Shown here: piece after piece, positions 17,625-36,919 of the stretch
Layout of the letters: the number at the start of each line of letters is the position of its first letter
Numbering within the stretch: the stretch's first letter is position 1
Assembly (NCBI GenBank): GCA_012519115.1
Contig: JAAYQW010000014.1
Location: forward strand, 1 to 36,919
Origin: Spirochaetales bacterium
GTDB taxonomy: Bacteria; Spirochaetota; Spirochaetia; Sphaerochaetales; Sphaerochaetaceae
Direction of reading: 5' to 3'
Length of the DNA stretch: 36,919 nucleotides
The notes under the pieces: model-generated
The model's database searches: none
Told to the model about the DNA's origin: nothing
The model's input: only the letters and a program-made list of their open reading frames with translations
Translations under genes and position numbers: made by a program

Positions 17625-18533
17625 ATGAATCTCAATAAAAACCAAAAGGAAACAATTAGAGGATACCTGTTTGTAGCTCCGGTACTTTTATTACTGTTCC
17701 TTTTTTCTCTTTATCCTCTTTTTAAAACAATATATTTCAGTTTTTTTGATATCCGTTTAGCTTCAATGAATCGTAAAGTGTTTGCCGGATGGAAAAACTA
17801 TCGACTCTTGTTCACAAGAGTGAATCCGAGCTTTTTTTCTCAAATCTTGCCGGCCACGGTGTATTACGTCGTCGGATCTGTAGCCGGGCAAATTGGATTT
17901 GGATTTTTGCTTGCGATTCTCGTTCAACAAAAGTTTGTGAAAGGAAGAGAAGCAATACGGGCAATCATCATTTTACCCTGGGTCGTCAGCGGTATCATCA
18001 TCGCAATTTCCTGGCGTTTCATGTATGAGCCTCGTTTAGGAGTTCTGAATTATCTTTTGGCGAGCATGGGGGTCGGCAATCCGCCTACCTGGCTGAATGA
18101 TGAACGTTTGGTGATGGGCTGTCTGGTTGTTGCCAATATTTGGCACGGCATGGCGTTCAGTTTCATTATCCAGACCTCCGGTCTGCATTCAATCAGTGAT
18201 GAAGTGATGGAAGCAGCCTTGGTCGACGGAGCAAATGGATTTCAGAGATTGACTTTGATCATCATTCCCCTGGTGCGTCAATTTCTTGTTTTGAACCTTA
18301 TTCTCACGAGCATGGCGACAATCAACTCATTTGATTTGATTTTTGCAATGACAAACGGAGGCCCCATGTTCAAGACAGAGGTAATATCCGTTCAAATGTA
18401 TCACAGAGCTTTCGGGTTTGGCCGACTTGGAGAGGGTTCGGCGATCGCGACCATTATTTTGCTGATGAATTTGATTTTGACAATATTTTATATGCGTATG
18501 AACAAAAACCAATCCGAAGGAGGTGACGGATGA
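17625..18533 (+). CDS. sugar ABC importer permease, MalF/UgpA-type
   Basis: A 302-residue six-helix membrane protein with the EAA loop 'EEVMEAALVDGANGFQRLTL' near residues 190-209 that docks on the ATPase. The N-terminus ('RGYLFVAPVLLLLFLFSLYP') is typical of MalF-type permeases without the long periplasmic loop. It overlaps the second permease by four bases. No strong ribosome site is close to ATG 17625, so its translation is expected to be weaker than that of the binding protein. Confidence 0.92.
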   Translation: MNLNKNQKETIRGYLFVAPVLLLLFLFSLYPLFKTIYFSFFDIRLASMNRKVFAGWKNYRLLFTRVNPSFFSQILPATVYYVVGSVAGQIGFGFLLAILVQQKFVKGREAIRAIIILPWVVSGIIIAISWRFMYEPRLGVLNYLLASMGVGNPPTWLNDERLVMGCLVVANIWHGMAFSFIIQTSGLHSISDEVMEAALVDGANGFQRLTLIIIPLVRQFLVLNLILTSMATINSFDLIFAMTNGGPMFKTEVISVQMYHRAFGFGRLGEGSAIATIILLMNLILTIFYMRMNKNQSEGGDG

Positions 18534-19366
18534 GATCTAAACGTTCCCTGCTCCTCAAGGTTATTACATACGCAATTATTTTGATGTGGATCATATTTAC
18601 CATTGGTCCTCTGTATTGGCTTTTGAGTTCGACCTTCAAACCGAGTTCTGAAGCAATCGGCTATCCGCCAACTCTTTTTCCGAAAAACCCGACACTTCAG
18701 AACTTTAAGAATCTGTTTACGGCAAGCCGTTTTAATTTTTATTCCTACGGTCACAGTTTTATCATCGGATGCGGAGCAATGTTCATCAGTTTGCTGGTCG
18801 CCATGTTTGCCGGATATGGATTGTCCCGAGTGCACTTCAAAGGAAAGCAAATTGTGATGACGACGATACTGTTGTTCCAGATGGTCCCTATCCTGGCTAC
18901 GCTGATTCCTTTGTATCAAACCTTTTCACGATATGGTCTTTACAACACTCATTTGGGATTGATGCTGATTTATGCTACTCAAACGGCGCCAATGAACACA
19001 TGGCTTCTTAAAGGGTATTTTGATACCATCCCATATTCAATTGAAGAAGCTGCACAAATCGATGGATTATCCCGTCTTGCAACACTTTACAGGATTGCGC
19101 TTCCGATTGCCGCGCCTGGGTTATCGGCTTCGACGATATTCGCTTTCTTCAAAGCATGGAATGAGTATATGGTCGCTTTGACCATGACGAGCACTGTCCG
19201 TCCCTATACGGTTGAGCTTTATCGATTCATTGGAGAGCAGGGCGATGTGGACTGGAGTCTTTTAGGCACGGCTGCGCTTATTGCAGTTTTGCCCGTTTTT
19301 ATTCTATTCTCCTTCTTCCAAAAGTATTTTATCATTGGCATGTCCGGAGGGGCGATTAAATCATGA
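18530..19366 (+). CDS. sugar ABC importer permease, MalG/UgpE-type
   Basis: A 278-residue six-helix membrane protein with the MalG-type EAA loop 'IEEAAQIDGLSRLATLYRIA' at about residues 171-190. The C-terminus ends 'YFIIGMSGGAIKS', the normal ending for this family. GGAGG lies just before the ATG, within the end of the preceding permease gene. It overlaps the next gene by four bases. The operon has no ATPase gene, so the importer must use an ATPase encoded elsewhere. Confidence 0.92.
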   Translation: MRSKRSLLLKVITYAIILMWIIFTIGPLYWLLSSTFKPSSEAIGYPPTLFPKNPTLQNFKNLFTASRFNFYSYGHSFIIGCGAMFISLLVAMFAGYGLSRVHFKGKQIVMTTILLFQMVPILATLIPLYQTFSRYGLYNTHLGLMLIYATQTAPMNTWLLKGYFDTIPYSIEEAAQIDGLSRLATLYRIALPIAAPGLSASTIFAFFKAWNEYMVALTMTSTVRPYTVELYRFIGEQGDVDWSLLGTAALIAVLPVFILFSFFQKYFIIGMSGGAIKS

Positions 19367-28840: not shown

Positions 28841-28897
28841 CACAATTATCGATAGAATAAAACTCTCCTGATGTGTATAGTTGGGGAGGAGGCAATA

Positions 28898-30256
28898 ATG
28901 CACATTGTTTTGATAGGGGCCGGAAGTGCCCAGTTCGGTTTAGGATCCTTAGGGGACATCATGCAGAGCGAGCTGCTCGCAGGCTCTTCGATCGCATTGG
29001 TTGATATCGACGAACAAGCACTTTCCCGAGTACATACGATTGCTCAAACCTTCATCGAAGAACATGGATTGAACTTCACCGTTACCGCGACCACCGATCG
29101 GAAAGCCGCCCTCAAAGACGCTGATGCTGTAATCATCTCGATCGAAGTAGGCCAGCGCTTCCCGCTCTGGAAGGAGGATTGGACGCTCCCTCAACAATAC
29201 GGATCTCAGCAGATCTACGGTGAAAACGGCGGACCCGGCGGACTCTTCCATGCCCTCCGGATCACTCCGGTGATCCTCGAGATGTGCGATGATGTGATTG
29301 AAGTCTGTCCGGATGCATGGGTATTCAACTACTCGAACCCGATGACCGCGATCACCACCACCGTCTTGCGAAAATACCCGGATCTGAAGTTTGTCGGCAT
29401 GTGCCATGAAATCGCCTCGTTGGAGCGGTATCTTCCTTCGATTCTCAATACGCCGTTTGAAAACCTTGAGCTCAGAGCGGCCGGGTTGAACCACTTCAGC
29501 GTCCTGCTCAGCGCCCGCTATAAAGACAGCGGCAAGGACGCTTATCCCGATATCCTTGCCAAAGCACCCGCTTTCTTTGAACGTGAACCGGGTTACAGCG
29601 ATATCCTTGCGTATCTCAAGGCGAATCCTCAGGAGCTGCAAACCGAAGGATCGACCAACCGGACTCTTCCACCTGAGATTCGGAGCAAGAAAAGTTGGGC
29701 GGATCGGGGATTGTTCAAAGAAATTCTTGAAACCTACAAGCTCCTTCCGATAACCGTTGATTCACATATCGGCGAGTATATCGCATGGGCACATGAAGTT
29801 GCAGATCATAAGGGCATCAAGGACTTCTTTGAGCTCTATCAGATCATGCTCGGTTTCAAAAAAGCCAAGATCCAGCTCAAAGCCCATGAACGGATCTCCT
29901 TCATCTTGGACGGCATCGTCTCCAACTCCGGATATGAGGAGAGCGCGGTAAATATTCTGAACGATCGGTTGATTCCGGATCTTCCATCCTGGATCGCTGT
30001 CGAAGTTCCCGCTCAGGTGTATGCCAACGGCTTGAGGGGAATCGCGTTTCCCGACTATCCGAAAGGCTTCGGAGCGCTGCTGAGAAACTATACGGGAGTG
30101 TATGACCTGACCGCCGAAGCGGTTTTGCGGAAGAAGAAGGAGTATGCGGTCCAAGCGCTTTTAGCCAGTCCGATCGTTACTCCCGTCAAAGCGGCGGGCG
30201 AGCTGGTCGAATTGATGATTCAACGTCAAGAGAAGTGGCTGGGGTATCTGAAATAA
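28898..30256 (+). CDS. glycoside hydrolase family 4 (NAD-dependent alpha-glycosidase)
   Basis: This 452-residue protein has the GH4 Rossmann start ('MHIVLIGAGSAQFG', NAD binding), the 'NYSNPMT' motif (144-150), C169-H170 ('VGMCHE', metal ligand region) and 'GLNHF' with H199 as second metal ligand. GH4 enzymes cleave alpha- or beta-glycosides, often 6-phosphorylated or galactosides/galacturonides, by an oxidation-elimination path needing NAD+ and Mn2+. The exact substrate is not readable here. GGAGGAGG lies before ATG 28898; the frame is open from 28871. It stands alone and ends in a terminator shared with the tRNA gene. Confidence 0.9.
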   Translation: MHIVLIGAGSAQFGLGSLGDIMQSELLAGSSIALVDIDEQALSRVHTIAQTFIEEHGLNFTVTATTDRKAALKDADAVIISIEVGQRFPLWKEDWTLPQQYGSQQIYGENGGPGGLFHALRITPVILEMCDDVIEVCPDAWVFNYSNPMTAITTTVLRKYPDLKFVGMCHEIASLERYLPSILNTPFENLELRAAGLNHFSVLLSARYKDSGKDAYPDILAKAPAFFEREPGYSDILAYLKANPQELQTEGSTNRTLPPEIRSKKSWADRGLFKEILETYKLLPITVDSHIGEYIAWAHEVADHKGIKDFFELYQIMLGFKKAKIQLKAHERISFILDGIVSNSGYEESAVNILNDRLIPDLPSWIAVEVPAQVYANGLRGIAFPDYPKGFGALLRNYTGVYDLTAEAVLRKKKEYAVQALLASPIVTPVKAAGELVELMIQRQEKWLGYLK

Positions 30257-30267
30257 GAGAAAAGAAG

Positions 30268-30297
30268 AGGCCTCCTCAAACTTCGAGGAAGCCTTTT
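30268..30297. terminator. bidirectional terminator shared by the GH4 gene and the tRNA gene
   Basis: AGGCCTCCTC (30268-30277) pairs with GAGGAAGCCT (30285-30294) with one mismatch and a seven-base loop. TTTT follows on the plus strand, ending the GH4 transcript. On the minus strand the same hairpin, followed by CTTCTTTTC, ends the tRNA transcript. Its plus-strand T-run touches the tRNA 3' end. Confidence 0.75.
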
Positions 30298-30369
30298 AGC
30301 GGCAAAGGGACTCGGACCCCTGACCTAGCGGATATGAGCCGCTTGCTCTACCAACTGAGCTATGCCGCC
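30297..30369 (-). tRNA. tRNA-Met (anticodon CAU)
   Basis: A full 73-base cloverleaf on the minus strand: acceptor GGCGGCA with TGCCGCT, D-arm GCTC/GAGC around AGTTGGTA, anticodon stem AGCGG/CCGCT with loop CTCATAT (anticodon CAU), and T-arm AGGGG/CCCTT with loop TCCGAGT. CCA is not encoded. CAU may be elongator Met, initiator or lysidine-modified Ile. The acceptor end is G1-U72, not the unpaired 1-72 end of initiators, so elongator Met is the first guess. Position 55 is C, which is unusual. A good promoter lies at 30383-30412. Confidence 0.9.
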
Positions 30370-30470: not shown

Positions 30471-31307
30471 ATGAAATATAAGACATTCAGCAATGGGGTT
30501 GCCATTCCCGTCGTCGGTTTTGGAACGTGGCAAGTCTCCCCTCAGGAAGCATATGAAAGTGTTCGATCGGCATTGGATGTGGGATACCGGCACATCGACA
30601 CCGCCGCTGCATATGAAAATGAAGCGGAAGTCGGTCAAGCGATCACCGACAGCGGCATCAAGCGCGAAGAACTGTTTGTCACCACCAAGCTGGGGAATAA
30701 GATCCGCGGTTATAAAGAAACGCTCCAAGCGGCAAAGGAATCGATGGAAAAGCTCCAAGTCGAATACCTCGATCTGTACCTCATCCACTGGCCCAATCCC
30801 GCCGCCCATCGTCATTGGTGGAAAGAGGCCAATGCCGAAAGCTGGAAGGCGATGGAAGAGCTCTACCGGAAAGGCGTGATCAAGACGATCGGAATCAGCA
30901 ACTTTGAAGAGCGGCATATCGAAGCGCTTCTTGCGAGTGCACAGGTCATCCCCCACACAAACCAGATTCGGCTCTTTGCCGGCGAGCAGCAACGGGCTCT
31001 GGTCGCCTATTGCCGAAATAAAGGGATGGTCACCGAAGCATACAGCCCGCTCGGGGTAGGGGGAATCCTATCCAACGAGGTGATTTTGCGGATTGCAGGA
31101 GAAACGAATCGCACTTCCGCTCAGGTCGCTCTGCGCTACAACCTCCAAAAGGGTCATGTCGTTCTTCCGAAGAGTGTGCACCGCCGGCGGATGGCGGAAA
31201 ACCTCGATCTCTTCGATTTCGAATTGAGCCAAGAGCAGATGGTCTGCCTTGATGCTCTTCCAAACACGATCAGCGCGACGCGCAACCCGGACGAGGTGCC
31301 CTTCTGA
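30471..31307 (+). CDS. aldo/keto reductase
   Basis: A 278-residue (beta/alpha)8 protein with the AKR catalytic tetrad D43, Y48, K73 and H106 ('HIDTAAAYENE', 'TTKLGN', 'YLIHWPNP') and the NADPH-binding C-terminus 'VVLPKSVHRRRMAENL'. It reduces aldehydes or ketones of small metabolites, of the 2,5-diketogluconate reductase type. AGAGGA lies before ATG 30471. The stop codon overlaps the start of the next gene by one base, so it leads an operon with a membrane protein and a CYTH protein. Confidence 0.93.
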   Translation: MKYKTFSNGVAIPVVGFGTWQVSPQEAYESVRSALDVGYRHIDTAAAYENEAEVGQAITDSGIKREELFVTTKLGNKIRGYKETLQAAKESMEKLQVEYLDLYLIHWPNPAAHRHWWKEANAESWKAMEELYRKGVIKTIGISNFEERHIEALLASAQVIPHTNQIRLFAGEQQRALVAYCRNKGMVTEAYSPLGVGGILSNEVILRIAGETNRTSAQVALRYNLQKGHVVLPKSVHRRRMAENLDLFDFELSQEQMVCLDALPNTISATRNPDEVPF

Positions 31308-32687: not shown

Positions 32688-32709
32688 GAATGAGGTAACA
32701 ACCTCATTC
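32688..32709. terminator. hairpin between convergent CYTH and AraC genes
   Basis: A perfect 9-bp stem, GAATGAGGT (32688-32696) with ACCTCATTC (32701-32709), has an AACA loop. It contains the stop codon of the AraC gene (minus-strand TGA at 32706-32704). The following T-tract is weak on both strands, so termination may be partial. Confidence 0.5.
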
Positions 32710-33630
32710 GTTGCTTAAAAAATCGATTCCAATTGGGATGTTTTGCTTAACAATCGTGTAATTGAATTGCAGCGGCGGTAAGTTTATCTGGTCTTTAGTA
32801 TATGTCTCGCGAAAAGTAGTCGGACTCATTCCATAGTACTTTTTAAAAAGATGGTAAAAATGACTAAGATTTTGAAAACCTGAATCCAGAGCAATTGTGA
32901 TAATCGTATCCTCAGTATTAATAATCTCTTTCGTAACATAATCAATTCGCAATTCATTAATGATCTCAGTTGGTGTTTTGTTCAAATATAAGCGACAGGT
33001 TCTAGCCAGATGTTCATAGCTTCTAGTAGAAAGTCGGACCATCGCAGGCAGCCCTTCGGTAAAATTCTCCTTTTTCATCATCTCCAAAACGACCCATCTC
33101 AGCCATTCAGGTATATTAGAATTCTGAATTGCACCAATGAGTGGATAACACATAGTAAATATCTTTAAAAACGAAATTCTGAAAAATGTTTCAGATTGAT
33201 CTTTTAAAATATTCTTGGAGAGAACCAACTGTTCCAAATCCTGTAGAACACATTCGAACTCTCTTTCTGATAAACTGGATTTTGGAGGTAACGAAGACGA
33301 CATGAATTTTTCGAGACTATAGCCTGATCCAAGATAGGAAAATAAAGAATCAATTGTATGTCCATCGATTAAAATATTAATAATGACGAAATCATCAGAC
33401 ATATGTGAATAGCAATGAAAATCATTTGGCCTCATGAAAACCACTGATCCCTTTTTTAGTAACTGAGTTGTGTTGTTTACTATGTGATATGCTTTACCTT
33501 CTTTAACGAGAAACAGCTCGAAATAGTCGTGCGTGTGCATTGCTTGCAGCTGTTCATGTTTTTCAATCAATGCAACATACCGATGAGAAGGATCAGTCGT
33601 AAATTGTTTTAATGTTAGTTTTACAGCCAT
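32704..33630 (-). CDS. AraC-family regulator of the glycyl radical enzyme operon
   Basis: The 308-residue protein has an N-terminal cupin-like sensor ('MHTHDYFELFLVKEGKAYHI' and 'KGSVVFMRPNDFHCYSH', about residues 30-75). The C-terminal pair of AraC helix-turn-helix motifs lies at about 205-300 ('DSGFQNLSHFYHLFKKYYGM' and 'SPTTFRETY'). It is divergent from the glycyl radical enzyme gene, with 118 bases between them, and probably activates that operon when its ligand binds the cupin domain. The gene is AT-rich, like the two downstream genes and unlike the rest of the window, consistent with acquisition as one block. The ligand is unknown. Confidence 0.9.
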   Translation of the reverse strand: MAVKLTLKQFTTDPSHRYVALIEKHEQLQAMHTHDYFELFLVKEGKAYHIVNNTTQLLKKGSVVFMRPNDFHCYSHMSDDFVIINILIDGHTIDSLFSYLGSGYSLEKFMSSSLPPKSSLSEREFECVLQDLEQLVLSKNILKDQSETFFRISFLKIFTMCYPLIGAIQNSNIPEWLRWVVLEMMKKENFTEGLPAMVRLSTRSYEHLARTCRLYLNKTPTEIINELRIDYVTKEIINTEDTIITIALDSGFQNLSHFYHLFKKYYGMSPTTFRETYTKDQINLPPLQFNYTIVKQNIPIGIDFLSNE

Positions 33631-33645
33631 AGGCTAATTTTCTCG

Positions 33646-33730
33646 ATATCATTTTAACACAACAATAATATCAGCACAAGACAAGACTGCACCAAATATT
33701 AAGTGTATAAATATCATAAAATAACAATAA
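33646..33730. repeat. imperfect AT-rich direct repeat in the AraC-glycyl radical enzyme intergenic region
   Basis: ATATCAT followed by an A/T stretch and AACAATAA occurs at 33646-33668 and again at 33711-33730. The second copy lies just before the glycyl radical enzyme ribosome site. It could be a pair of AraC-protein sites, but the region is so AT-rich that chance is a real alternative. Confidence 0.3.
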
Positions 33731-33748
33731 AGATACGGGGGTGATGAT

Positions 33749-35995
33749 GTGAATAATTTTAAAGTAAACAATCCAAGGAAAAATCTTAATTTTGAGATTT
33801 CATTTACGAATGCGTATAGAAATGCAATTAAAAATACAACTCATCCTGCAGAATTAGAGCTTGCATGCATGCGAGCTCAGTATCCTGCAATTTTTCACCC
33901 CATACAGGATGAAGATTTAATCGCCGGAAGAATTCAAATGGGACTTGTTGGCTGGGGAATCCAACATCAGACCGGTGGATTCGGGTTTTATATAAATGAA
34001 CAAGAAGTTGTTAAAGAATTGGAGAAAGGAAATGGTGATGCACAATATCGAGAGGATTTGCATGACATCTTAACCTTCTGGAAAGGCAGAAACACGACAA
34101 CCGTTGTATTGAACAATACCCCTGAATCATTAAAACCTTGGATTTTCACCGATCAGTGGCGTCATTTACCTTTACCCATTTGTCCGATTTTAAGAATGGC
34201 AGGTGCTTACTTGAATTTTCATAAATTAGTAAAAATAGGGCTGCCGGGATTAGAAAAAGAAATAAAACAATTCATGGAAAATGCAGAAGACCGCGTTTTG
34301 TTTGAGAGTATGCTGGGGGTGCTGCAACTTGTTAAAGACTGTGCTTTGTTTTATGCAGAACAAGCACAGGAACAAGCTGTTACCGCCTCTGCAAGCAGAA
34401 AGTCAGAATTAAATAGCATATCCTCTGCTTTGCTGGCAATTAGAGAAAGGGCTCCACAAACCATGTTGGAAGGGCTTCAGCTCGTATGGCTTTACGGCAT
34501 TATGACACCCGCAATTGAATATGGAAGATTGGATGAATATATTGGTGATCTATATGTTCATGATGTTGATAATGGGATCATCACTGAGGATCAGGCCATA
34601 CGCTATGTGGAAAGTTTTTTCCGACTAATCGATCATCTAGATTGTGAAACAGATGGTAGAGTTATTATCGGTGGTTATGGCAGAGAAAACACAGAAAATG
34701 CGGATCGCTTTTGTCCGGTTGCAATTGAAGCTTGTAGAAACGTGAAGGAAGTGCTTCCTCAATTTACTCTTAGATTCAATAAAGATACACCTGAAAATGT
34801 ATGGCGCGATTCATTAAGATGCATCGAGGAAGGTAGAACGTATCCACTATTATACAACGATGATGTCTTGGTTCCTGGAGTAATGAAAGCGTTTGATGTC
34901 AGTCGGGAATTGGCTGAGACTTATGTACCTTTGGGGTGTGGTGAAATCGAGTTTGATCATCATAGTATTGGATCCCCAAACGGATCAATAAATACCCTTA
35001 AAATTTTGGAATTGGTTATGAGAGGAGGATATGAACCAATGACAGATTGGTACATTGGTCCAAGGAACCCCAAATTATCCGAATGCAAAACGTATGAAGA
35101 GTTTTTATCATACTACAAGGCTGCATTGGTTGAATATATTGAAAAACAAGCTGAATTCCAAGTGTATGAATATGATATAACCGGAAAAACTCATCCATTT
35201 ATGATGGTTACTATGCTTTATGATGGAACATTAGAAAAAGGTAAATCAATTTTCAATGGGGGTTGTGCATATCTGGCAGGAACACTTGAATTCTACGGTA
35301 ATGTTAATGCAGCCAATAGCTTGGCTGCAATAAAGAAAACAATCTTTGAAGATAAAACCATAGATGCATATGAGCTTGAAGATGCACTAACCAACAATTT
35401 TGCAGGCAGCGAACGAATACGGAAACTCTTGTTGGATGCTCCAAAATATGGGAATGATGATGATTATGCAGATTCAATTTTTACAAATCTCCATAACTTC
35501 GTGTCAGATACAACAAAAAAACAAGCCAGTCGTGTAGGTCTTAAAAGTTATCTTTCTGTAACAATTAACAATGCTCAAAATACAACTTTAGGTCGATGGG
35601 TCGGAGCCACTCCCGATGGCAGAAAAGCCGGAACACCTATGGCAAATGCCAACAACCCCCATCCTGGAACTGATCGTAGAGGTCTTACGCCTATGATCAA
35701 TTCGATTCTGAAACCAAGACACGACAATCATGCCGGAATGGTCAGCAACTTGCGGTTTACAAGAGAGAACTTCACATCCGCGAGGAATAAAATGCATTCA
35801 CTGATTGAGAACTATTTTGAACGAGGTGGCGCTCACGCAATGATTACCGTTATTGGCAAGGACGATCTGAAGAACGCCTTGGAACGCCCTGAAGAATATA
35901 AAGATTTAATCATTCGAGTTGGTGGTTTTTCAGCTAGATTTGTTGATTTGAACAAAGATGTCCAACAGGAGATTTTTGATCGTGTCACCTATTGA
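33749..35995 (+). CDS. glycyl radical enzyme of unassigned class
   Basis: The 748-residue protein has the two catalytic loops of the pyruvate formate-lyase superfamily. The C-terminal glycyl loop is 'IIRVGGFSARFVDL', with the radical on G726. The active-site cysteine loop is 'YVPLGCGEIEFDHHS', with C397 and E399. Dehydratases such as choline lyase and glycerol dehydratase have GCVE with a proline after; pyruvate formate-lyase has two adjacent cysteines. Here Val is replaced by Gly and no proline follows. Cys plus Glu suggests a radical eliminase or dehydratase on a small polyol, amine or sulfonate (inference). It starts at GTG 33749 after GGGGGTGAT, and works anaerobically with the activase at 35982. 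Confidence 0.93.
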   Translation: MNNFKVNNPRKNLNFEISFTNAYRNAIKNTTHPAELELACMRAQYPAIFHPIQDEDLIAGRIQMGLVGWGIQHQTGGFGFYINEQEVVKELEKGNGDAQYREDLHDILTFWKGRNTTTVVLNNTPESLKPWIFTDQWRHLPLPICPILRMAGAYLNFHKLVKIGLPGLEKEIKQFMENAEDRVLFESMLGVLQLVKDCALFYAEQAQEQAVTASASRKSELNSISSALLAIRERAPQTMLEGLQLVWLYGIMTPAIEYGRLDEYIGDLYVHDVDNGIITEDQAIRYVESFFRLIDHLDCETDGRVIIGGYGRENTENADRFCPVAIEACRNVKEVLPQFTLRFNKDTPENVWRDSLRCIEEGRTYPLLYNDDVLVPGVMKAFDVSRELAETYVPLGCGEIEFDHHSIGSPNGSINTLKILELVMRGGYEPMTDWYIGPRNPKLSECKTYEEFLSYYKAALVEYIEKQAEFQVYEYDITGKTHPFMMVTMLYDGTLEKGKSIFNGGCAYLAGTLEFYGNVNAANSLAAIKKTIFEDKTIDAYELEDALTNNFAGSERIRKLLLDAPKYGNDDDYADSIFTNLHNFVSDTTKKQASRVGLKSYLSVTINNAQNTTLGRWVGATPDGRKAGTPMANANNPHPGTDRRGLTPMINSILKPRHDNHAGMVSNLRFTRENFTSARNKMHSLIENYFERGGAHAMITVIGKDDLKNALERPEEYKDLIIRVGGFSARFVDLNKDVQQEIFDRVTY

Positions 35996-36899
35996 TAGAG
36001 AAAAAGCAATCGTGTTTGATATCCAACGATTTTCGATTCATGATGGTCCAGGAATCAGAACGAGTGTTTTCTTGAAAGGTTGTCCACTGTCATGTGAGTG
36101 GTGCCATAACCCTGAGGCGCAAAACAAAAATCCAAGATTGATGTATAAAAATTCTTTATGTCGAAAATGTGGATTATGTATTTCAGCATGTGAGCAGGGG
36201 GTTCATACTTTTGATGCAAGCGGCAACCATATTGTTAATTTTGACTTTTGTAAAATTTCAGGACAGTGCATCAAAACATGTTGCTATGAAGCGCTAAGTA
36301 TTTCCGGTACTTGGTATTCTGTTGATGAATTGCTTGAAGAGATTAAATCAGATTTTCCTTATTTTAAAATTGGAAATGAAGGAGGTGTTACTTTTACTGG
36401 TGGGGAGCCAATGTTATGGTCTGAGTTCATTGCAGCTTTTGCAGAGATTGCTAAAGATATATCTATTTGTATAGAAACATCCGGATACGCACCGACAAAG
36501 GCTTTTAAAGATGTATTGCCAAAGATTGATATGTTTTTATTTGATTGGAAAATTACCAACAAAGAAAAGCATGTCAAATATTGTGGAGCGTCTAATGAGC
36601 TGATATTAGAGAATTTGAAGTTTTTGCATGAACAGGGTGCCAATATAATATTGAGATTGCCCATAATACCGGGAGTTAATGATGATGATGAGCATTTTTT
36701 AGGAATTGCAAAAATCATGCATGACTTCAATTCAATAATAGCAGCAGAAATATTACCGTATCACAGCATTGGAAAGTCAAAAGTCGAGTGGTTTGGATTA
36801 AAAAATCAAAAGATGTTTTCAGTGCCGACACAAGATCAAAAATTGTTTTGGCTCAAAAGATTAAAAGAATTGGGTGTAAAAAATATTTTACTGACTTGA
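35982..36899 (+). CDS. radical-SAM glycyl radical enzyme activase with ferredoxin-like insert
   Basis: The 305-residue protein has the radical-SAM motif C34-x3-C38-x2-C41 ('GCPLSCEWCHNPE') after the activase opening 'FDIQRFSIHDGPGIRTSVFL'. An insert with two cysteine clusters ('CRKCGLCISACEQG' and 'CIKTCCYEAL') could carry two further iron-sulfur clusters, as in activases of glycerol- and choline-type enzymes. The motif 'TFTGGEPMLW' binds SAM. It puts the radical on G726 of the enzyme upstream. I start it at GTG 35982, with AGGAG ten bases upstream, overlapping the enzyme gene by 14 bases. The in-frame ATG 35958 has no ribosome site. Confidence 0.92.
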   Translation: MSPIDREKAIVFDIQRFSIHDGPGIRTSVFLKGCPLSCEWCHNPEAQNKNPRLMYKNSLCRKCGLCISACEQGVHTFDASGNHIVNFDFCKISGQCIKTCCYEALSISGTWYSVDELLEEIKSDFPYFKIGNEGGVTFTGGEPMLWSEFIAAFAEIAKDISICIETSGYAPTKAFKDVLPKIDMFLFDWKITNKEKHVKYCGASNELILENLKFLHEQGANIILRLPIIPGVNDDDEHFLGIAKIMHDFNSIIAAEILPYHSIGKSKVEWFGLKNQKMFSVPTQDQKLFWLKRLKELGVKNILLT

Positions 36900-36919
36900 G
36901 AACAATACCCTAAAAAAGG

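Follow-up and report, generated by a model that had tools for sequence, protein, structure and literature searches.

A distinct class of glycyl radical enzymes with a GCGE cysteine loop and a probable role in sugar breakdown

What does a glycyl radical enzyme (GRE) act on when its catalytic cysteine lies in a loop that reads G-C-G-E? Known GREs convert small acids, alcohols, amines, sulfonates and hydrocarbons. Anhydrohexitol phosphates also figure among their substrates, according to the portion of PMC12441222 available to us. The question is raised by a 36,919-nucleotide stretch of DNA from a Spirochaetales bacterium (hereafter the window), which makes up all of contig G000:C88 in a draft assembly of 1.70 Mb and 83% completeness. 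Here we present the GREs that carry this loop as a class that is distinct and well delimited by sequence, and propose that the window enzyme probably breaks a sugar bond by a route not yet described. We propose cleavage of a sugar bond because in related bacteria its gene is part of an operon that also encodes an importer for sugars and an enzyme that cuts them.

The locus consists of three genes at the right end of the window, and the positions given for them in the earlier note were confirmed for all three open reading frames, with Pfam and NCBIfam in agreement. An AraC-type regulator with a cupin/AraC_binding domain (32704..33630, minus strand; Pfam HTH_18, HTH_AraC, AraC_binding and Cupin_2) is transcribed divergently from the GRE gene. 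The 118 bases between the two reading frames (33631..33748) are presumed from their position to be the control region of the pair. The GRE gene (33749..35995, plus strand) starts with GTG, preceded by GGGGGTGATGAT, and encodes 748 amino acids that match PF02901 with 321.7 bits and PF01228 with 73.7 bits; profile, BLAST and tree place the protein in the GCGE class. The radical SAM activase gene (35958..36899, plus strand) overlaps the GRE reading frame by 38 bases as called. Its product scores 302 bits on TIGR02494 against a cut-off of 174, matches PF04055 and carries a CPLSCEWC motif together with ferredoxin-type cysteines. Thus the general features of the superfamily are present: a Gly_radical domain, a PFL-like barrel with its catalytic cysteine and an adjoining radical-SAM activase. 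The contig ends 20 bases past the activase (36900..36919), and the assembly holds no genes to the right of 36919. Upstream of the AraC gene and outside the conserved operon, two reading frames appear by eye to encode a GH4-type glycosidase-like protein (28871-30256) and an aldo/keto reductase-like protein (30471-31307). An Rfam scan of the window returned one tRNA (30297-30369, minus strand), and a scan of viral contigs yielded no relative.

Among 80 loci kept, best-segment identity to the window GRE is 70, 59 and 40% in the three closest and at most 31% in all others; the nearest by GRE belong to a Spirochaetaceae metagenome-assembled genome (MAG; L032, 70%) and an Oscillospiraceae MAG (L034, 59%). 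A class profile (A1) built from nine relatives was used to collect further members. It found the class in 6 of 139 genomes of the family and, with more than 500 bits, in 9 of 392 genomes of a phylum sample, where the remaining matches listed reached at most 356 bits. The order of Onthomonas yielded 10 of 295 genomes and the order of a Bacteroidales member 5 of 393, the centre genome being included in both counts. Anaerobes of at least three phyla carry the class, as named Spirochaetaceae, Oscillospiraceae and Bacteroidales records.

The boundary of the class is sharp. When GRE reading frames of at least 500 amino acids were compared on the profile, those with their final 60 residues in common being counted once, 27 distinct proteins scored at least 535 bits and 109 GREs at most 377. 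For each of the 27 members the worst BLAST score within the class exceeded the best score outside it. In a 68-row tree, built by a quick method that supports the split of the class and not its attachment point among other GREs, 29 class rows lie on one side of a single branch (SH-aLRT 100, stem length 1.07); one member, L154, was left out for its missing C-terminus. Solved GREs reach at most 335 bits on the class profile. The earlier note had held that a separate cluster without characterised members would support novelty, and this is the pattern that BLAST, tree and solved structures display.

The loop itself was no chance variant. GCGE occurs in 26 of the 27 members, the remaining one reading GCTE, and in none of 113 outside GREs (the 109 low scorers, E. 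coli YbiW, PflD and PflB, and the 1r8w chain), of which the nearest has GCGD. In the window enzyme it comprises G396-C397-G398-E399 (34934..34945, plus strand). The glycyl radical loop R723-V-G-G726-F (RVGGF; 35915..35929, plus strand) is equally characteristic: of the 26 members whose sequence covers it, 25 read R[VIL]GG, and RVAGY is found in 84 of the 113 outside GREs, at least two of which also have a GG glycyl loop. Novelty had previously been argued from the proline that is missing after the loop, and this argument did not hold. HypD (GCVET), YbiW (GCIET) and PflD (GCVEL) lack it too, and GCVEP occurs in only 25 of the 113. What sets the class apart is Gly398, together with the second Gly of the glycyl loop. 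A further variant among the outside GREs is an ACWE cysteine loop (VAACWEF), seen in six of the 113 (L013, L014, L016, L017, L018 and L020).

Family models agree with this separation. The window GRE matches 12 NCBIfam models and reaches the cut-off of none. On the PFL2/glycerol dehydratase model TIGR01774 it scores 268.6 bits against a curated cut-off of 678.2, and on the equivalogs for CutC, HypD, HpsG/HpfG, HPAD, indoleacetate decarboxylase and PflD-type enzymes 190-250 bits against cut-offs of 1000-1150. Ten outside GREs were run on TIGR01774: eight exceed its cut-off, and the proteins CutC and HypD stay slightly below it at 649-670 bits. Titles and abstract openings of the open-licence papers among the matches listed contain no description of a GCGE class, which apparently, as far as searched, has no characterised member.

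Might the window enzyme nevertheless be a lyase for glycerol, propanediol, choline or hydroxyproline that has diverged? Among solved structures glycerol dehydratase 1r8w is indeed its best relative (232.6 bits), and the two have the catalytic trio in common. C397 and E399 are kept in 30 of 30 aligned members and radical G726 in all 29 with sequence there, C397 aligning with C433 of 1r8w, so that the intact cysteine and glycine reported earlier stand. The substrate pocket is another matter. We take the substrate contacts of glycerol dehydratase to be H164, H281, S282, Y339, D447 and Y640. None of the 30 class members has H164, H281, Y339, D447 or Y640, S282 occurs in six that do not include the window GRE, and the five residues preceding H281 are missing in all 30. 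The stretch D-G-R at residues 302-304 (34652..34660, plus strand) aligns with the glycerol dehydratase pocket stretch 339-341; Asp302 is found in 25 of 30 members and Arg304 in all 30, where other GREs mostly have Asn. Because the trio is conserved while the assumed contacts are mostly gone and Arg304 is gained, the sequences describe a class with standard radical machinery and a new substrate pocket. In addition, no aldehyde dehydrogenase or microcompartment family was found in 60 neighbour proteins scanned singly. Together with the NCBIfam scores and with the BLAST and tree results that set the class apart from the known lyases, this makes a diverged member of one of those groups highly improbable.

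The trio nevertheless says something of the chemistry. Other GREs with a Cys-Glu pair provide the basis for reading it as elimination of a neighbouring C-O (or C-N, C-S) group (PMC6453916 and PMC12441222, in the portions available to us), and by this analogy we infer the same for the GCGE class. Cleavage of a C-O, C-N or C-S bond had been proposed in the earlier note; the pair on which that rested is invariant, and of the three bonds C-O is favoured, given a sugar substrate.

The case for a sugar comes from the gene context of relatives. The window GRE belongs to a subclade with nine other genomes (11 tree rows, support 100), in which operon orthologues were sought by tblastn with the genes of L112 (genome G121) as queries, L112 itself being counted among the nine. 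In 9 of 9 genomes (L112, L114, L115, L116, L117, L032, L131, L132 and L155/L156) the GRE and activase genes have close by them a solute-binding protein and two permeases that form a CUT1-type importer; the contig of L117 breaks off within the second permease, and in L155 the importer (43-49% identity) is placed after a four-gene insert. The binding proteins match solved sugar-binding proteins, with 5iai, probably a pentitol-binding protein, best in 3 of 3 tested. A GH42 glycosidase is present in seven of the nine, the contig of L117 ending first and L032 having none within 12 kb, and the motif WNEPHLEP is present in 5 of 5 GH42 proteins examined. Eight of nine have a divergent AraC gene, whose products are 40-59% identical to that of G121, L032 being cut on that side, which fits the inducible catabolic role that the earlier note had read from the dedicated regulator. 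In the class as a whole, tblastn located an activase in 28 of 30 loci. Genes of the high-GC loci L131, L132, L155 and L156 were called by third-codon GC and tblastn, and some neighbour proteins without a family are probably antisense reading frames.

This importer and GH42 context links the GREs of the subclade strongly to carbohydrate use. It is invisible in the window because it shows only in the relatives, and the window's operon, cut at the contig end, would be expected to continue as it does in them. Against this, the importer's binding protein, sought in the window's own 83%-complete genome, had no match closer than one of 25% identity, on contig C65. Elsewhere in the window, at 17625-19360, lies a permease pair with 27-33% identity to the GRE-operon permeases of relatives, an identity so low that the pair is taken as a separate importer.

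Outside the subclade the link to carbohydrates is weaker. Class loci there have SSF, GH130, GH125, GH3, GH2, ROK, SIS, SASA, apiosidase-like and sulfatase neighbours. We compared 12 such loci, hand-picked as one per close group, with 12 other GREs taken at even steps down the score ranking, leaving out one to a few neighbours of more than 1000 amino acids. Among 61 neighbours of the class loci, GH130 occurs in three and GH125, GH3, GH129 and apiosidase in one each (25 families listed of 62). Among 71 neighbours of the controls, which were not lifestyle-matched, the 25 families listed of 89 include no glycoside hydrolase; they include two aldehyde dehydrogenases, two transaldolase-type proteins, one ROK and one Sugar-bind. 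Neighbourhoods rich in glycoside hydrolases are common in gut anaerobes. Six neighbours at L162 and L163, scanned singly, yielded no clear carbohydrate enzyme; they comprise a clostripain, two ABC exporters, a MatE protein, a metallo-beta-lactamase fold and an NPCBM protein. Since the hydrolase types vary between subclades, no single sugar is indicated.

With moderate confidence, and from sequence context and analogy, we therefore favour the reading that the GRE of this locus is a radical C-O lyase acting on a carbohydrate (sugar, polyol or glycoside) within an AraC-controlled operon that includes an importer and a GH42 glycosidase. The two halves of the proposal have separate roots: the carbohydrate substrate is deduced for the class from gene context, and the C-O lyase chemistry from likeness to other Cys-Glu GREs, C-O being preferred over C-N or C-S because the substrate would be a sugar. 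AraC would sense the substrate or a breakdown product and switch the operon on, yielding GRE and activase and, as in the relatives, a CUT1-type ABC importer and the GH42 glycosidase. The activase would place the radical on G726, from which it would move to C397. The C397 thiyl radical would then abstract hydrogen from a hydroxylated sugar carbon while E399 accepts the hydroxyl proton, and the resulting ketyl radical would expel the neighbouring C-O substituent, be it water, a ring ether or a glycosidic oxygen. Hydrogen would be returned to the product at the end of the cycle.

Opening of a ring ether derived from a sugar has precedent among GREs in E. coli YbiW and PflD (PMC12441222, in the part accessible to us). 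The window enzyme could be imagined as a new anhydrohexitol-phosphate lyase, a YbiW/PflD analogue acting by ring opening on a 1,5-anhydro sugar phosphate, as these two sugar-related enzymes rank with the other solved GREs in their scores on the class profile (306 and 237 bits). We regard this as very unlikely: the subclade operon, as seen in the nine other genomes, carries an ABC importer, which would deliver an unphosphorylated sugar, against the PTS beside pflD; the 60 singly scanned neighbours offered no fructose-6-phosphate aldolase family; and YbiW and PflD are placed elsewhere in the tree.

The window's genome holds a second GRE. It lies at G000:C27:76259-78328, is cut by the contig end and has a GCCS loop without the Glu. 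It is preceded by a Gfo/Idh/MocA oxidoreductase, whose nearest PDB relative is DgpA (87.8 bits), and by an AraC protein 39% identical to that of the window. The GRE and oxidoreductase pair (L031 3982-8329, on G000:C27) recurs on Candidatus Onthomonas avicola contig DVJB01000016.1 (L155-L156; pair at L155 11740-16710) at 59% and 50% identity, the GCCS GRE at 59%. Gene order there runs from the GCGE operon through the GCCS pair and the importer to a second GCGE GRE with a GH42, a lyxose/mannose isomerase-like protein and a PfkB kinase. Of the three GREs on the island two are GCGE and one is GCCS, all of them accompanied by an activase; two Gfo/Idh/MocA proteins and an aldo/keto reductase are encoded there too. 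Of 139 family genomes, the window's own is the one with the GCCS GRE at class-level score, and G077 has a further match of 212 bits; the enzyme is absent from the other five family genomes with a GCGE GRE and present in 1 of 22 other GCGE genomes. These counts rule out a general co-occurrence of GCGE and GCCS GREs, so that the GCCS enzyme is an optional partner and not a part of every GCGE pathway.

Could the substrate be a sugar and the chemistry something else, such as a C-C or C-N break or a skeleton rearrangement with Glu399 in another role? The pocket is rebuilt, so the reaction need not follow the dehydratases, and the Glu-free second GRE in the same genome points the same way. The Cys-Glu pair, however, is present in every member of the class and is common to outside GREs with known dehydratase or lyase roles, and PflB has Ser in place of that Glu. 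We therefore consider such a reaction unlikely and retain radical C-O cleavage as the preferred reading.

Two of the 27 members, in two genomes of one Bacteroidales order, differ at the N-terminus. L033 (9818-12196) and L154 (3-1961, minus strand) start with TRRDFLK and SRRRFLK, respectively, and in both a hydrophobic stretch comes next. The two motifs fit the Tat consensus S/T-R-R-x-F-L-K (PMC3383694, as far as its text was available), and a looser Tat pattern occurs in 1 of 109 other GREs (L068). In both L033 and L154 the activase gene lies directly upstream. A search of family relatives for further tagged members gave 1 of 23 and 1 of 149 genomes, each being the centre genome itself. These sequences suggest that the two proteins are exported, and if the Tat tags are real they would be exported GREs. 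Titles and abstract openings among the matches listed name no exported GRE. We know of no precedent for one.

A bolder reading, which we hold to be quite unlikely, would make the GCGE enzymes radical glycoside lyases, with the GCCS GRE and a 3-dehydrogenase-like oxidoreductase joining in the same route in some hosts and Tat export in some Bacteroidales. The thiyl radical would take the C2 hydrogen of the sugar ring and the ketyl would expel the C1 group, so that the glycosidic or ring C-O bond would be cut without hydrolysis to give an anhydro-ketose. In some Bacteroidales a Tat-exported, activated GRE might thereby bring radical glycan chemistry to the periplasm. On the favoured C-O lyase reading, the class, found in sugar-uptake and glycoside hydrolase loci, would add a radical step to carbohydrate breakdown. 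Since importer, hydrolase and regulator are known, a list of assays for the class is ready.

How does the class compare with known systems? DgpA-type glycoside 3-dehydrogenases of the 3-keto-glycoside route are the best solved relatives of the oxidoreductase beside the GCCS GRE; that route differs in cleaving by beta-elimination, and the parts of the literature accessible among the matches listed name no GRE in it. CutC choline lyase and HypD hydroxyproline dehydratase share the GRE fold family, the Cys-Glu pair and an activase of their own. Their proteins score more than 1200 bits on their own NCBIfam models and more than 500 on each other's, as against 240-243 for the window GRE. The B12-independent glycerol dehydratase (1r8w/1r9d) likewise has the Cys-Glu pair and the radical glycine and is the best solved sequence relative, but it carries GCVEP and RVAGY where the window enzyme has GCGE and RVGGF, and has no sugar operon. 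The E. coli anhydrohexitol-6-phosphate lyases YbiW and PflD resemble the proposed enzyme in the Cys-Glu pair and in C-O cleavage of sugar-derived substrates (the latter from the available part of PMC12441222). They differ in their loops, GCIET and GCVEL with RVAGY, and in that pflD adjoins a PTS, whereas the GCGE subclade is served by an ABC importer.
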